Of a stretch of DNA of 64,000 bases, positions 4,143 through 64,000 are shown in pieces (position 1 is the stretch's first letter; each line of letters starts with the position of its first letter). The DNA lies in assembly GCF_009996735.1 (NCBI RefSeq), contig NZ_JAACYI010000007.1:1-64000 (forward strand). The letters are read 5' to 3'. Made by a program: the position numbers and the translations under genes. The stretch comes from Cellulomonas sp. APG4 (GTDB lineage Bacteria; Actinomycetota; Actinomycetes; Actinomycetales; Cellulomonadaceae). The notes under the pieces were generated by a model. That model saw nothing but the letters and a program-made list of their open reading frames with translations, searched no databases and was not told where the DNA came from.

Positions 4143-4158
4143 CGGCCGGAGAGAACGT

Positions 4159-4301
4159 ACGTGCTCCGGGGTCGGTGAAAGTCCGAGCCGGCGGTGACAG
4201 TCCGCGACCCGGTCCGTGCTCGCCCACCCGGGCGTGCCGGTCCGGTTGACCTGGTGGAACTCCAGGACCGACGGTGAAAGTCCGGATGGGAGGAAGCACG
4301 T
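4159..4301 (+). ncRNA. FMN riboswitch (RFN element)
   Basis: This is a complete FMN aptamer. The closing helix pairs ACGTGCT (4159-4165) with AGCACGT (4295-4301). Inside are the conserved blocks GGTCGGTGAAAGTCCGA, GCGGTGACAGTCCGCGAC, TTGACCTGGTGGAACTCC and CCGACGGTGAAAGTCCGG, in the family order. An 85-90-base expression platform follows before the AGGAGG of ribD. I see no U-tract there, so control by hiding the ribosome-binding site or by Rho is more likely than an intrinsic terminator. FMN binding should repress synthesis genes and the downstream transporter together. Confidence 0.97.
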
Positions 4302-4391
4302 GGCGTCCCGACGACGGCCGCGGCCGGAGCCGGTGACGTCCTGACGCGCGTCCGCGTCCACCCCGGAGCCTGAGGCCCGGAGGAGGCGGCG

Positions 4392-5447
4392 GTGACGCAG
4401 CCGGCGAGCGTGAGCGAGGTCGAGGACCGCGCGATGCTGCGTGCGCTCGAGCTCGCGCGACGCGGCCCTGCGCACGGCCCGAACCCGCGCGTGGGCTGCG
4501 TCCTGCTCGATGCCGACGGCGCGGTCCTGGCCGAGGGGTGGCACGCGGGTGCGGGCTCGCCGCACGCCGAGGCGGCTGCCGTCGCCGACGCGCGGGCCCG
4601 CGGCGTGGCCGTGCAGCACGCGACCGCCGTCGTGACCCTCGAGCCGTGCGCGCACACGGGGCGCACCGGGCCTTGCAGCGAGCTGCTCGCCGAGGCCGGC
4701 GTCCGCCGTGTGGTGCACGCGGTGGCGGACCCGAACCCCGTCGCGGGCGGGGGAGCGGACGCCCTGCGGTCGCGTGGTGTCGACGTGGTCGGTGGTGTGC
4801 GCGCCCCGGAGGGCGAGGAGCTCCTGCGGATCTGGCTCACGTCGGTGCGCCGCGGCCGCCCCTGGGTCACCGTGAAGACGGCCCAGAGCCTGGACGGTCG
4901 CGTCGCCGCGGCCGACGGCTCGAGCCGCTGGATCACCTCGGAGCAGGCCCGGCTCCACGCCCACCGCCTGCGTGGGGAGGTGGACGCCGTCGTGGTGGGC
5001 ACCGGGACGGTCCTCGCCGACGACCCCGCGCTCACGGCACGCACGCCCGAGGGCACGCCCGCAGCGCACCAGCCGCTCCGCGTCGTCGTGGGCGAGCGCG
5101 ACGTCCCCCAGGGGGCCCGGATGCGCGGGCCCGGCGGTGAGCTGCTCCACCTCCGCACACGCGACCTCGACGGCGCGCTCAGGTCCCTCGCGGCACGCGA
5201 GGTGCGTCACGTGCTCGTCGACGGCGGCCCCACCCTGGTCACGGCGCTGCTGCGGGCAGGACTCGTCGACGAGGTCCACACCTACGTCGCCCCGGTGCTG
5301 CTCGGCGCCTCGGGCCGCGCGGCGCTCGGCGACCTCGACGTCCCCACGATGGCCGACGCCCGTCGCCTCGTGCCCCACGAGGTCCACCGGCTAGGTCCGG
5401 ACCTCCTGCTCGTCTCCGTCCCCGTCCCGCCCGAGGAGGGCCCCTGA
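4392..5447 (+). CDS. ribD: Bifunctional riboflavin deaminase/reductase RibD
   Basis: It deaminates and then reduces the pyrimidine intermediate of riboflavin synthesis. The N-terminal deaminase domain (residues 1-145) has the zinc motifs HAEAAAV and PCAHTGRTGPC. The C-terminal reductase domain (about 150-345) begins RPWVTVKTAQSLDGR and has DAVVVGTGTVLADDP and LVDGGPTL. The GTG at 4392 follows AGGAGG at 4381-4386 with good spacing. It is the first gene of the FMN-riboswitch operon, and its stop overlaps the ribE start by one base (TGATG). Confidence 0.96.
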   Translation: MTQPASVSEVEDRAMLRALELARRGPAHGPNPRVGCVLLDADGAVLAEGWHAGAGSPHAEAAAVADARARGVAVQHATAVVTLEPCAHTGRTGPCSELLAEAGVRRVVHAVADPNPVAGGGADALRSRGVDVVGGVRAPEGEELLRIWLTSVRRGRPWVTVKTAQSLDGRVAAADGSSRWITSEQARLHAHRLRGEVDAVVVGTGTVLADDPALTARTPEGTPAAHQPLRVVVGERDVPQGARMRGPGGELLHLRTRDLDGALRSLAAREVRHVLVDGGPTLVTALLRAGLVDEVHTYVAPVLLGASGRAALGDLDVPTMADARRLVPHEVHRLGPDLLLVSVPVPPEEGP

Positions 5448-6040
5448 TGTTCACCGGCATCGTCGAGGAGATCGGCACCGTGCTCGCGGTCGAGCGCGGC
5501 CCGGGCGACGTGCGCCTGCGCGTGCGTGGCGCGACCGTGACCGACGGCACCCGCCTGGGCGACTCGATCGCCGTCGACGGCGTCTGCCTCACGGTCACGG
5601 ACCTCGCGGGCGACGCGTTCGCGTGCGACGTGATGCCGGAGTCGCTCGACCGCAGCAGCCTCGGCGGCCTGGCCCCCGGCGCGCGCGTCAACCTCGAGCG
5701 CGCGGTCCGGGCGGACGGGCGCCTCGACGGTCACCTGGTGCAGGGCCACGTGGACGGCGTGGGCGTCCTGGTGCGACGCGATCCGGGCGCGCGCTGGGAC
5801 GACCTCCGCTTCACCGCGCCGCCGGCCCTGCTGCGCTACGTCGCCGAGAAGGGCTCGATCGCGGTGAGCGGGGTCTCGCTCACGGTCACGGGGGTGGACG
5901 ACGAGGGCTTCGGCGTCTCGCTCATCCCCACCACCCTGGCCGCGACCACGCTGGGGAGCCTGACCGCAGGGGACCGGGTGAACCTCGAGGTGGACGTGAT
6001 CGCCAAGTACGTCGAGCGGCTGCTGGGCGGTGCCCGGTGA
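5447..6040 (+). CDS. ribE: Riboflavin synthase, alpha subunit
   Basis: It dismutates two molecules of 6,7-dimethyl-8-ribityllumazine to riboflavin and the pyrimidine precursor. The 197-aa protein has the hallmark start MFTGIVEEIG and two homologous barrel domains: the first has DSIAVDGVCLTV, the second GSIAVSGVSLTV. The internal duplication and the length fit the family exactly. It overlaps ribD by one base and ribBA by four, so the operon is tightly coupled. Confidence 0.96.
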   Translation: MFTGIVEEIGTVLAVERGPGDVRLRVRGATVTDGTRLGDSIAVDGVCLTVTDLAGDAFACDVMPESLDRSSLGGLAPGARVNLERAVRADGRLDGHLVQGHVDGVGVLVRRDPGARWDDLRFTAPPALLRYVAEKGSIAVSGVSLTVTGVDDEGFGVSLIPTTLAATTLGSLTAGDRVNLEVDVIAKYVERLLGGAR

Positions 6041-59545: not shown

Positions 59546-60094
59546 TCAGTCGTGGCTCGGCGGCTCCTCGACCTCGCCCGCCGCGTGCCGCGCCACCACG
59601 AAGACCAGGTCGGACACCCGATTGAGGTACTCGAGCGCGAGTGGTGAGACCTCGTGCCCGGCCTCCGCCGCCTGGACCACGTGCCGTTCGGCGCGACGGA
59701 TCACCGTGCGCGCGTGGTCGACGGCGGCCGAGACCTGGGTCGAGCCCGGCACGATGAAGACCGGCCGCAACGGCCTCTCGGCGACCAGCGTGTCGATGAG
59801 GCTCTCGAGCCCGTCGACCATCTCACGCGTGACCTGGGACACGCCGGGCGTGCGGCGGTCCCGGTGCGCGGGGTTCGTCGCGAGGTCCGCCGCGACCACG
59901 AACAGCTCGCGCTGCCGGTCGAACAGGATCGCCGCGAGGCGCTCGTCCGCGCACAGGGCGCGTGCCGTCCCGAGCACCGCGACGGCCTCGTCGACGTCAC
60001 CGCACGCGTCGACGAGCACGTCGGCCTTGGAGACCCGCCCGCCAAGGAACAGGCCCGTGGTGCCGTCGTCGCCCGCCTTCGTGTAGATGCGCAT
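59546..60094 (-). CDS. PduO-type cob(I)alamin adenosyltransferase
   Basis: It adds the 5'-deoxyadenosyl group to cob(I)alamin to make coenzyme B12. The 182-aa protein has the ATP-binding start IYTKAGDDGTTGLFLGGRVSK, the region DACGDVDEAVAVLG, and LNRVSDLVFVVAR near the end, all PduO/MMAB hallmarks. It diverges from a cobalamin-riboswitch operon, so salvage and activation of corrinoids appear linked. Its promoter must lie in 60095-60150, shared with the riboswitch promoter. Confidence 0.93.
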   Translation of the reverse strand: MRIYTKAGDDGTTGLFLGGRVSKADVLVDACGDVDEAVAVLGTARALCADERLAAILFDRQRELFVVAADLATNPAHRDRRTPGVSQVTREMVDGLESLIDTLVAERPLRPVFIVPGSTQVSAAVDHARTVIRRAERHVVQAAEAGHEVSPLALEYLNRVSDLVFVVARHAAGEVEEPPSHD

Positions 60095-60137: not shown

Positions 60138-60143
60138 TAGCCT
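60138..60143 (+). promoter_or_regulatory. -10 element of the B12 riboswitch operon
   Basis: TAGCCT would start transcription near 60150, exactly before the aptamer. No good -35 is seen. Confidence 0.4.
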
Positions 60144-60150
60144 GAGACGC

Positions 60151-60262
60151 GCCGCCGTCCGGCGGCAGATCGACGCGTGGTCGCAGGGGAAGCCGGTCCG
60201 AGTCCGGCGCTGTCCCGCAACCGTAGGTCGCCCCCCGGGGCGGCGAGCCGGAGCACCTGCAC
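60151..60262 (+). ncRNA. Cobalamin riboswitch
   Basis: The conserved core GGGGAAGCCGGTCCGAGTCC, then GGCGCTGTCCCGCAACCGTAG, followed by the B12-box-like GAGCCGGAGCACCTGC, is diagnostic of the cobalamin aptamer. Outer limits are approximate. It precedes transport genes only, so it should shut off uptake when B12 is abundant. A later stem (60272-60303) may be part of the expression platform. Confidence 0.92.
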
Positions 60263-60400
60263 CGCGCGAGAGGCTCCTACCGTCGAGGCAACGGGACGGA
60301 GCCCGGGCCGCGACCGGCGGTCTGCGCGTCCCGTGGGACCAGGCGCAGGCCACCGCCCTGGGCCGGGCCCGTCACGGGCCGCTCAGAATTGAGGCTCCAC

Positions 60401-61105
60401 GTGCACGTCCGTCCCGCATCCCTCCGGGTGCTGCTGCTCCCCCTGCTCGCCGCCGGTGCGACGGCGCTGCCGCTCACCGCGGCCGCGGCCGCCCCTGCCC
60501 CCGTGCTGACCGCCGTTCCGACGGGCGAGGCCTGCGCCGACGACGCGGGCGTCACCGTGGTCGTCGACCTCACGGACCTGGGGGGCGAGGTCGAGGTCGG
60601 CTGCGCCGAGGGCACGCCCGCCTCGGGGGCCCAGGCGCTCGCGGACGCCGGCTTCACGGACACCCGCGACTCGGCGCAGATGATCTGCGCGATCGACGAC
60701 CTCCCGAACCCCTGCCCGACGACGTTCGAGGGCAGCTGGTGGTCCTACTGGTCGGCCGAGGCCGACGGCGAGTGGGTGGCGTACGAGGTCGGCGCCGACC
60801 AGTCGACGCCGCAGCCGGGCGCGGTCGAGGGCTGGCGCTACTTCGACGGCTCGGCGGGCCCGACCGTCACGCCCGCCGAGGCCCTCGCCACGGCCGAGGT
60901 CGCGCAGGAGGACGAGCCGGGCGACGAGACCGGGTCGGACGGCGCTGCGGCGGACGACGCCGGGACGACCCCGGGCGACGAGGACGAGCCCGGGTCGGTG
61001 ACGCCGCTCGTGCTCGGCGCCGCGCTCGCGGTGCTGCTCGTCGCGGCCGTCGTCGGCCTCACCCGTCGTCGCCGCGACCCGCACGGCCCGGGCGGCCAGG
61101 ACTGA
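60401..61105 (+). CDS. Secreted, membrane-anchored putative corrinoid-binding protein
   Basis: The product is 234 aa. A signal peptide (about residues 1-32) precedes an ectodomain with four cysteines (45, 68, 96, 105). The Trp/Tyr-rich block WWSYWSAEADGEWVAYEVG (113-131) and GAVEGWRYFDG recall the DUF4430/transcobalamin-like C-terminal fold. An acidic Asp/Glu linker (165-198) leads to a membrane helix (202-220) and a basic RRRR stop. It is the first gene behind the cobalamin riboswitch and lies one base from the ECF T-component. Binding corrinoids at the cell surface is my inference. The GTG at 60401 follows GAGG; a TTG at 60389 is an alternative. Confidence 0.7.
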   Translation: MHVRPASLRVLLLPLLAAGATALPLTAAAAAPAPVLTAVPTGEACADDAGVTVVVDLTDLGGEVEVGCAEGTPASGAQALADAGFTDTRDSAQMICAIDDLPNPCPTTFEGSWWSYWSAEADGEWVAYEVGADQSTPQPGAVEGWRYFDGSAGPTVTPAEALATAEVAQEDEPGDETGSDGAAADDAGTTPGDEDEPGSVTPLVLGAALAVLLVAAVVGLTRRRRDPHGPGGQD

Positions 61106-61106
61106 C

Positions 61107-62147
61107 GTGCACCCCTGGGCGTGGTGGGTCTGGGCGCTCGGCCTCGCCGTCGCGACCACCCGCACGACGAACCCGCTCGTCGTGGGCCTCGTGCTGCTCG
61201 CGGCCGTCGTCGTCGTGCTCGCACGGCGTGAGGACACCCCGTGGGCCCGCGCCTTCCGGGGGTACCTCCTGCTCGCGGCGGCCGTGCTGGTCATGCGCGT
61301 GGCGTTCCACGTCGTCGTCGGGATCAAGGGACCGGGGCAGGTGCTCCTCGACCTGCCCCGGGTCCCGCTCCCGGAGTGGGCGGTGGCCGTGCACCTGCTG
61401 GGCCCGGTCACCGTGGAGGGGCTGCTCGGCGCCGTCTACGCGGGCCTGCGCCTGGCCGCGCTGGTGGTGTGCTTCGGCGCCGCGAACGCGCTCGCCAACC
61501 CCAAGCGCGCCCTGCGTGCGCTGCCCGCGGCCCTGCACCAGATCGGTACCGCGGTGGTGATCGCGATGAGCGTGAGCCCCGCGCTCGTGACCTCTGCGGG
61601 GCAGGTCCGCCGCGCGCAGCGTCTGCGCGGCCAGGAGCCGCGCGGACCTCGCGGCCTCGTCGCCCTCGCCGTCCCCGTGCTCGACGACGCGCTGGACCGC
61701 TCGCTCGCGCTCGCGGCGTCGATGGACTCGCGCGGGTACGCCCGAGCCGTGCGCGCAGGTGGCGACCGACGCGTCGCCGCCCTCCTGCTCGTCGCGCTGC
61801 TCGCGGCGGCCGTCGGCAGCTACGGACTGCTGGACGCGACGACGCCCGGCTGGCTCGGCGTCCCCGTGCTCCTCGCCGGAGCCGTCGCGGCCGTGCTGGG
61901 CTCGCTGCTCGCGGGGCGCGCCGTCCGGCGCACGCGGTACCGCCCGGACCGCTGGGGCGTGGCCGAGACCGTGGTCGCGGCGAGCGGCGTCCTCGCGGGG
62001 ACGGTCCTCGTCGCCGTCACCGCGAGCGACCCCGCGCTCCTCGAGCCCTCGCTCCACCCGTTGCGCTGGCCCGCCCTCCCCCCGGTCGTGGTGCTCAGCG
62101 TCGCTGCGGCCGTGGTCCCCGCCCTTCTCCCGGGGAGGCCGGCATGA
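61107..62147 (+). CDS. ECF transporter T component
   Basis: The energy-coupling membrane subunit of an ECF transporter, 346 aa, with about eight hydrophobic segments. It carries the coupling motif AASMDSRGYAR (about residues 204-214), the Ala-Arg-Gly type box that contacts the ATPases, and an earlier ANALANPKRALRALP. It is longer than minimal T subunits (about 260 aa) because of extra C-terminal helices. It follows the riboswitch-controlled secreted protein by one base and overlaps the ATPase gene (ATGA). Confidence 0.88.
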   Translation: MHPWAWWVWALGLAVATTRTTNPLVVGLVLLAAVVVVLARREDTPWARAFRGYLLLAAAVLVMRVAFHVVVGIKGPGQVLLDLPRVPLPEWAVAVHLLGPVTVEGLLGAVYAGLRLAALVVCFGAANALANPKRALRALPAALHQIGTAVVIAMSVSPALVTSAGQVRRAQRLRGQEPRGPRGLVALAVPVLDDALDRSLALAASMDSRGYARAVRAGGDRRVAALLLVALLAAAVGSYGLLDATTPGWLGVPVLLAGAVAAVLGSLLAGRAVRRTRYRPDRWGVAETVVAASGVLAGTVLVAVTASDPALLEPSLHPLRWPALPPVVVLSVAAAVVPALLPGRPA

Positions 62148-63808
62148 TCCGCTTCGAGCACGTCGGCGTGACCTATCCCGGGAGCGAACGGCCCGCGCTG
62201 CGCGCGGTGGACGTCACCGTCGAGGAAGGTGCCCTCGCCCTCGTCGTCGGCCCCACCGGCTCAGGCAAGTCGACGCTGCTCCGCGCTGCCACGGGGCTGG
62301 TGCCGCACTTCACCGGCGGCCTGCTCACCGGGCGCGTCCTGGTCGAGGGCCGCGACACCCGCACCCACCTCCCCCGTGATCTCGCCGACGTCGTCGGCGT
62401 CGTCGTGCAGGACCCGGCGCGCGGCTTCGTGACCGACACGGTCGAGGAGGAGCTGGCCTACGCGATGGAGCAGCTCGCCGTGCCGGCGACGGTCATGCGG
62501 ACACGGGTCGAGGAGGTGCTCGACCTGCTCGGCCTCGCGTCGCTGCGCAGGCGCGCGCTGGGCGACCTGTCGGGCGGCGAGCAGCAGCGCGTCGCGATCG
62601 GGGCGGTGCTGACCGCACGTCCGCGCGTGCTCGTCCTCGACGAGCCGACGTCGGCCCTGGACCCCGGGGCGGCCGAGGACGTCCTGGCGGCGCTCACGCG
62701 GCTCGTGCACGACCTCGGCCTCACGGTGCTCCTCGCCGAGCACCGCCTCGAGCGGGTCGTGCAGCACGCCGACACCGTGCTCCACGTGCGCGCCGACGGC
62801 ACGGTGCAGCAGGGCGACCCGGACGAGGTGCTCGCGGTCGCGAGCGTCGCGCCGCCCATCGTCGAGCTCGGCCGGCTCGCGGGCTGGTCACCACTGCCGC
62901 TCTCGGTACGCGACGCCCGCCGTCGGGCACGTGGGCTGCGTGAAGGGCTCGACGCCGGCGGCGGGTCGTCTCCCACCCACGTCAGGTCCCTCCCTGCCCC
63001 ACCCGCGCACGCTGGGGACCACGCCGCCCCCGCGGCGCTGCTCCGGGCCGACGACGTCCACGTGCAGCACGGCAGGGTCGCCGCCGTCCGCGGGGTCTCG
63101 CTCGAGCTCCACGCGGGCGAGGTCACGGCGCTCATGGGCCGCAACGGTGCCGGCAAGTCGTCCCTGCTGTGGGCGCTGCAGGGGTCGGGCCCCCGCCGCC
63201 GCGGGACCGTCCGGGTGGCGGGCCGTGGTGAGGTCGCGGGCGACCCGTCGACCATGGCCCCCGCGGAGGCGCGGCGACACGTGGGCCTGGTACCGCAGGA
63301 CCCGGACGCGCTCCTCTACCTCGAGTCGGTGGCCGCCGAGTGCGCGGCCGGTGACCGCCAGGCCGGCGCCCCTGCGGGCACGACGGCGCGCCTCCTGCGA
63401 GGCCTGGTCCCCGAGGCGGCTCCCGACCAGGACCCGCGGGACCTGTCGGAGGGTCAGCGGCTCGGGCTCGTCCTCGCGATCCAGCTCGCGGCGCAGCCCC
63501 GCGTCCTGCTCCTCGACGAGCCCACGCGGGGGCTCGACTACGGCGCCAAACGACGTCTCGCGAGCCATCTCGTCGCCCATGCCCGCGCGGGGGGTGCCGT
63601 GCTGCTGTCGACCCACGACGTCGAGTTCGTCGCCGTGTGCGCCGAGCGCGTCGTGCTGCTCGCGGAGGGCGAGCTGGTCGCCGACGGCGCGGCGCGCGAC
63701 GTGCTGGTCGCCTCGCCCACGTTCGCCCCCCAGGTCGCCCGCATCATGCACCCGCATCCCGTGCTGACGGTCGACGAGCTGCGACCGTCGCTCGAGGTCG
63801 GCGCATGA
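62144..63808 (+). CDS. ECF transporter, two fused ATPase domains
   Basis: The product is 554 aa with two ABC ATPase domains on one chain. Domain 1 (1-260) has GPTGSGKSTLL, VVQDPARGFV, LSGGEQQRVAIG and VLVLDEPTSALD. Domain 2 (about 300-550) has GRNGAGKSSLL, VPQDPDALLY, the variant signature DLSEGQRLGLVLA and VLLLDEPTRGLD. Both have Walker motifs, but the second signature has SEGQ where SGGQ is usual, so the two sites may differ in activity. The fused form replaces the EcfA-EcfA' pair. Its stop overlaps the S-component start (ATGA). Confidence 0.92.
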   Translation: MIRFEHVGVTYPGSERPALRAVDVTVEEGALALVVGPTGSGKSTLLRAATGLVPHFTGGLLTGRVLVEGRDTRTHLPRDLADVVGVVVQDPARGFVTDTVEEELAYAMEQLAVPATVMRTRVEEVLDLLGLASLRRRALGDLSGGEQQRVAIGAVLTARPRVLVLDEPTSALDPGAAEDVLAALTRLVHDLGLTVLLAEHRLERVVQHADTVLHVRADGTVQQGDPDEVLAVASVAPPIVELGRLAGWSPLPLSVRDARRRARGLREGLDAGGGSSPTHVRSLPAPPAHAGDHAAPAALLRADDVHVQHGRVAAVRGVSLELHAGEVTALMGRNGAGKSSLLWALQGSGPRRRGTVRVAGRGEVAGDPSTMAPAEARRHVGLVPQDPDALLYLESVAAECAAGDRQAGAPAGTTARLLRGLVPEAAPDQDPRDLSEGQRLGLVLAIQLAAQPRVLLLDEPTRGLDYGAKRRLASHLVAHARAGGAVLLSTHDVEFVAVCAERVVLLAEGELVADGAARDVLVASPTFAPQVARIMHPHPVLTVDELRPSLEVGA

Positions 63809-64000
63809 CCTGGCGCAGCCACGGGGACGGGCCGCCCGTGAACGCCGCGCGGCCGCCGCGCGTCGACGCGCTCACGCTGCGCCCGCGCACCGCGACCGCG
63901 CTCGTGCTCGCAAGCCTCGCCGGCCTGCTCGCCTTCGGCTGGCCGCTGCTCGTGGACCCGGGCACGGGCCTCGAGCACGGGCTCGACGCCCCGCTCGTGC
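63805..64000 (+). CDS. ECF transporter S component (partial)
   Basis: This is the start of a membrane protein cut by the window's end after about 65 residues. After a hydrophilic N-terminus, TLRPRTATALVLASLAGLLA and FGWPLLVD form the first membrane helix, in the style of actinobacterial ECF substrate-binding components. By position it gives the transporter its specificity; the riboswitch suggests cobalamin or another corrinoid. The rest of the gene must be read to confirm it. Confidence 0.65.
   Translation, partial: MTWRSHGDGPPVNAARPPRVDALTLRPRTATALVLASLAGLLAFGWPLLVDPGTGLEHGLDAPLV

Follow-up and report, generated by a model that had tools for sequence, protein, structure and literature searches.

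Near the right end of the analysed window (positions 1-64000 of the 145168-base contig C46, from the 3.74-Mb genome of Cellulomonas sp. APG4) lies an operon that is very probably a riboswitch-controlled scavenging system for vitamin B12 (corrinoids). It consists of a cobalamin riboswitch followed by four near-gapless genes on the + strand, which encode a surface protein and the EcfT, fused EcfA-A' and S subunits of an energy-coupling factor (ECF) importer. The T gene starts 1 base past the stop codon of the surface gene, and the T/A and A/S gene pairs each overlap as ATGA. The assignment rests on this computed operon structure, on the leader element, on the predicted fold of the surface protein and on the conserved association of these parts.

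The first-pass annotation of this DNA had placed a cobalamin riboswitch at the head of the operon, and the leader was indeed found to align with the adenosylcobalamin (AdoCbl)-type aptamer RF01482 over its full length (60161..60306, +; model 1-149/149). The score was 37.0 bits (E 2.1e-5), under the gathering score of 50, while RF00174 gave 25.5 bits against a gathering score of 31.5, and a default Rfam scan of the whole window did not list the element. The leader is a genuine cobalamin riboswitch, because in 17 of 18 other loci a cobalamin match (E 0.02 or better) lies ahead of the homologous gene; the 18th carries no homologue. Four of 18 window-family loci scored at or above gathering, one of them exactly at gathering as printed, and the riboswitch core is largely invariant among 10 aligned copies including that of the window. 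Folding of the leader alone was uninformative (z -1.03). A wider set was then formed by the best 80 of at least 572 relatives of the S component, whose record titles name actinobacterial taxa except for L162 ('uncultured bacterium'); leaving aside 10 loci without T in the available DNA and 10 with less than 2.5 kb ahead of T, 60 complete loci were obtained. Of these 60, 57 have a B12-box pattern (at most 6 mismatches in 33 fixed positions) in the upstream DNA of the same strand; a single mononucleotide shuffle of 120 loci, searched on one strand, gave 0 matches. When seven of the wider loci were given to Rfam, six showed a cobalamin riboswitch above gathering ahead of the operon, the exception being L172. 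The co-occurrence of the surface gene with B12 riboswitches across actinobacteria, which had been suggested as a check, is thus supported by all three counts. Scoring of 150 of the 213 initial candidates located two places with cobalamin riboswitches in the genome, and that of the operon is the only one leading a transporter. The other (L004:5027-5229, C18:35026-35228; 95.2 bits) sits at the beginning of a gene for the alpha subunit of a B12-independent type of ribonucleotide reductase (L004:5119-8235), whereas the B12-dependent NrdJ adjoins the B12 importer. In Streptomyces, nrdABS is known to carry a B12 riboswitch.

The surface protein (60401..61105, +) had been described as secreted, with four Cys and a C-terminal anchor, and its features agree with that description. 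A signal peptide is followed by Cys at 45, 68, 96 and 105 and by a single C-terminal hydrophobic stretch (~199-221) and then RRRR, and the sequence of this part predicts a transmembrane anchor (60995..61075, + with RRRR included; Kyte-Doolittle maximum 2.70, averaged from residue 203). The domain at residues ~44-150 (60530..60850, +) has four conserved Cys and two invariant Trp: among the 76 sequences of alignment A2, and in its numbering, C19, C42, W88 and W99 are invariant and C70 and C79 nearly so. The predicted structure of this domain has the beta-grasp fold of the C-terminal domain of transcobalamin, and its best structural matches are transcobalamin-type B12 binders at 9-16% identity. 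As candidates for the beta-hairpin insert that is specific to the transcobalamin clade and contacts the base, strands at 61-63 and 69-72 are predicted after the helix, and the structural alignment covers transcobalamin 310-409. The family is also linked by sequence to DUF4430 (hhalign 82%, E 1e-5, score 37.5; shuffles at most 18.3), so that the likeness to transcobalamin and DUF4430, a check named beforehand, was recovered in both structure and sequence. The window protein is not a member of PF14478 (DUF4430) as Pfam curates that family: PF14478 matched neither this protein nor its genome, and only 1 of the 76 family members (E 0.0018). It scored 29.7 bits with the NCBIfam model SCO2322 (NF040672), under the cut-off of 85, and Pfam and NCBIfam scans of the protein alone gave almost nothing. 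Searches of the PDB yielded chance matches that were discarded, one with the single sequence and two with the family profile (a Fab chain and XylA). The surface protein is classed here as a beta-only relative of two-domain transcobalamin-like carriers. Of 149 sampled genomes from the phylum, 26 contain DUF4430 proteins above the Pfam cut-off (L174-L203), and 24 of these 26 gave no SCO2322-family match.

The remaining genes were assigned in the order T, fused A-A and S that the first-pass annotation had read, with all Pfam scores above cut-off. EcfT is a CbiQ-type transmembrane subunit (61107..62147, +; PF02361, 32.1 bits, cut-off 25). The fused ATPase EcfA-EcfA' (62144..63808, +) contains two ABC domains, matched by PF00005 (ABC_tran) in two stretches with 165.9 bits, and it scored 269 bits with TIGR04521, below the cut-off of 330. 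The S component of 298 aa (63805..64701, +; L003:4806-5702), of which the first 65 codons lie in the window up to 64000, matches PF12822 (ECF_trnsprt; 39 bits, cut-off 30.7) and belongs to the conserved family A1. The genomic context points to B12 as its probable substrate. No CbiC was found in the genome, which suggests that de novo B12 synthesis is absent.

Analysis of the 60 complete loci revealed a beta protein beside T in 58 and, in 49, an alpha (alpha/alpha-toroid) protein in the locus too; the beta and alpha models had been iterated over the same 120 loci that were later counted, and the counts express conservation, not an independent test. The surface receptor originally proposed was therefore seen as far as its beta half goes, but was incomplete as a description of the related operons, most of which hold the alpha protein as well. 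Against PDB sequences, the alpha profile matched squalene-hopene cyclases (E 7.8e-35) and complement/macroglobulin toroids, and neither transcobalamin nor intrinsic factor was among the 60 of 61 matches listed. Of six alpha-bearing proteins scanned, one exceeded a Pfam toroid cut-off, two exceeded that of SCO2321 (NF053823), and the others scored below. The alpha domain of transcobalamin belongs to the same toroid fold class (PMC1796856, section 5), and a relation of the alpha proteins to it is suggested by the common toroid superfamily and the fusion order, with no direct match.

The two domains are arranged in several ways. L106 encodes a single chain with alpha, beta and, as judged by eye, a proline-rich linker and a membrane helix, and the chain of L065 contains alpha, two beta domains and cell-wall-binding repeats. 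In eight Streptomyces loci, alpha and beta are separate SCO2321-/SCO2322-type genes in permuted order; the beta of the Streptomyces loci L134 and L171 is unpermuted, and the Streptomyces locus L125 has no beta. The anchors also differ among relatives and include a membrane helix, S-layer homology (SLH) domains, CWB2 and a sub-threshold LPXTG-like match. Members of SCO2322 (NF040672) and SCO2321 (NF053823), both named without a function, sit in the same type of operon.

Variants of the beta domain were noted as well. In 14 SCO2322-type open reading frames (L054, L056-L058, L060, L121, L141, L142, L149, L150, L152, L153, L155 and L173), its halves are swapped relative to the window's family (model ~60-117 before 2-72). 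Alpha is colinear with a SCO2321-based model in 15 loci, mostly the swapped-beta ones, and other alphas match that model rotated; by sequence, this pattern resembles a double circular permutation within a single lineage. Two adjacent beta proteins per operon occur, for example, in L102, L104, L118, L120, L123, L124, L133, L136 and L159, and recall the paired extracellular SLBB proteins described in section 7 of PMC1796856. Additional beta proteins that are not next to the transporter were found at L157:10935-11692, L126:10825-11244 and L111:9642-10058; the first has its own cobalamin riboswitch above gathering, and the other two are on the opposite strand. These extra proteins are possibly further B12 catchers.

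Several observations, set out here and in the next two paragraphs, weigh against B12 scavenging by the window's operon. The first is the missing alpha partner, which was not found in the genome with NF053823, the L106 alpha protein or PF00432 as queries; the L106 query had no positive control, and PF00432 brings only 1 of 6 alpha-bearing proteins over the toroid cut-off. In passages of PMC5599065, both domains of transcobalamin are reported to contribute to tight B12 binding. When a quick tree was made from 67 S components and rooted by midpoint only, the window fell among 8 rows that are all beta-only and grouped with support 99, and this group lay inside a larger set with 21 rows of alpha plus beta and 9 of beta only. 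'Beta-only' here means no alpha within the locus, and covers L125, without beta either, and L128, with beta downstream of the operon. Three further beta-only rows of the window's family (L088-L090) are placed elsewhere on the tree, and the alpha label needs 8 changes, at least 4 of them forced by starred branches. The simplest reading is that alpha was lost before the 8-row group arose, and the window's clade appears to retain the beta half only. A protein that has lost its partner could have ceased to bind and taken another role, such as a structural cap or an assembly factor of S. The failure of all three alpha queries and the position of the 8-row group within a mostly alpha-plus-beta set would fit such a role; the invariant Cys and Trp of the family are nonetheless retained, and the gene is kept directly upstream of T across the clade, which makes it an unlikely account. 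According to the same passages of PMC5599065, human transcobalamin beta alone crystallises with cobalamin, and separately expressed domains bind cobalamin more weakly and assemble around it; therefore, binding by beta alone is possible, though weaker. It is also conceivable, though rather doubtful, that the beta half of the Cellulomonadaceae works with the importer by itself: S would stand in for the absent alpha toroid, and B12 would be held between the outer face of S and the tethered beta-grasp domain. In that case the importer would be an ECF system that has an extracytoplasmic binding subunit dedicated to it, and the surface protein would be half a transcobalamin whose site is made complete by the transporter.

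The second group concerns the importer. The sole specific match of S is to the folT family at 22.2 bits, under the cut-off of 60, and this sub-threshold hit is the only hint, and no clear sign, that S belongs to another vitamin family. No solved S component of known specificity was matched by S among PDB sequences. Elsewhere in the genome, FecCD permeases gave 9 matches, 8 of them above cut-off, and BtuFCD homologues are reported in more than 90% of B12-uptaking prokaryotes in the cited part of PMC2667541; the genome may therefore have another B12 uptake route. Among the complete loci, 2 of 60 have no beta beside T, and one of these, L125, consists of a B12 box and T-A-S with no beta found.

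The third concerns the neighbouring genes. A PduO-type cob(I)alamin adenosyltransferase gene (59546..60094, -; PF01923, 163 bits, and TIGR00636, 143 bits, both above cut-off) diverges from the operon across the leader, and nrdJ for the B12-dependent ribonucleotide reductase (L003:6176-9052; 1613 bits, cut-off 859) lies past the window, ~0.5 kb after S. The window's family has 17 loci (L074-L090; a weak match, G125, E 9.9e-4, whose locus L091 lacks beta, was excluded); PduO adjoins the operon in 14 of them and nrdJ is found by it in 11, three of the six without nrdJ stopping at contig ends. Among the best 80 S relatives, nrdJ occurs in 6 loci and PduO in 4, several of these few being Actinotalea, and the evidence from the two neighbours is limited to the window's own group. 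Within that group they suit complete corrinoids, as does the match of the predicted surface fold to corrinoid binders, and it thus seems quite improbable that the importer takes, and the surface protein binds, a precursor or relative such as cobinamide, dimethylbenzimidazole or alpha-ribazole in place of complete B12, even though the riboswitch and neighbours would suit any step of B12 salvage and transcobalamin beta binds cobinamide and cyanocobalamin alike (PMC5599065, in the part cited). A chance placement of an unrelated wall protein or adhesin in a B12-controlled ECF operon is a very improbable account of the surface protein despite the CWB2 or SLH domains of some relatives, given its presence in 58 of 60 operons and its predicted fold, that of B12 binders. 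Apart from these genes, the window contains an ordinary flavin mononucleotide (FMN) riboswitch (4158-4302, 85.7 bits) followed by ribD- and ribE-like open reading frames, named by eye, at 4392-5447 and 5447-6040.

Based on the above, B12 scavenging would proceed as follows. When adenosylcobalamin is scarce, the leader riboswitch would permit expression of the operon. The surface protein would be exported and held by its C-terminal helix, and its beta-grasp domain would trap corrinoids outside the membrane; in most related operons, the binder would be a two-domain device of alpha/alpha toroid and beta-grasp, fused or split in two proteins. The corrinoid would then be handed to the S component, and the ATP-driven T/A-A module would toggle S and release B12 inside, where PduO may adenosylate it and NrdJ may use the product. 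B12 as the ligand, its binding by beta alone and the hand-over to S are the steps that we infer.

If correct, this mechanism would give a testable function to SCO2321 and SCO2322, NCBI families of Streptomyces and other actinobacteria, and would propose an actinobacterial B12 uptake route beside BtuFCD. The bacterial relatives of the human B12 carriers would gain a branch in actinobacteria, whose natural variants (split, beta-only and permuted) let one ask which half binds first, an order proposed but not settled for transcobalamin in the cited part of PMC5599065. No open paper naming SCO2322 was found, and no paper on the actinobacterial operon was among the matches listed in open papers. The cited parts of PMC2667541 and PMC3766115 do not mention a surface binder, and the former notes that BtuFCD members are hard to distinguish from siderophore importers.

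The first-pass annotation had called the system a new mix of two designs, which was overstated. In the cited sections of PMC1796856, Burroughs et al. had already predicted in 2007 operons in which CbiO and CbiQ accompany secreted SLBB proteins of transcobalamin-like type, and proposed that these proteins, toroid partners, anchors and CbiO/CbiQ serve B12 scavenging (section 7). The taxa given for their transcobalamin SLBB clade are low-GC Gram-positives, planctomycetes and euryarchaea (section 6). The secreted or anchored SLBB protein, the toroid partner, CbiQ and CbiO are common to both sets, whereas the actinobacterial branch differs from that clade, as described there, in being missed by PF14478, in its conserved B12 leader and in its split, beta-only and circularly permuted forms. 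The kind itself was proposed in 2007; new here are the actinobacterial branch, its tight link to B12 riboswitches and these forms. Compared with the SCO2322 family, the window protein scores under the cut-off, and its domain halves are in the opposite order to those of the 14 open reading frames listed above. The animal B12 carriers transcobalamin, intrinsic factor and haptocorrin share the beta-domain fold at 9-16% identity; in contrast, only a membrane-tethered beta protein was found in the window, relatives often use two proteins, and an ECF importer replaces the endocytic receptor. ECF-CbrT of Lactobacillus delbrueckii (cluster nrdJ-cbrS-cbrT-pduO, no surface binder named in the cited part of PMC5997447) likewise is an ECF importer near nrdJ and pduO, whereas the present operon includes a surface protein and its S family matches no solved S component by sequence. 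BtuF is the extracytoplasmic B12 binder of BtuFCD (PMC5997447, same part), to which the putative binder described here corresponds in place; unlike BtuFCD, the transporter genes match ECF families, and the best structural matches of the binder, with BtuF not compared directly, are of the transcobalamin type.

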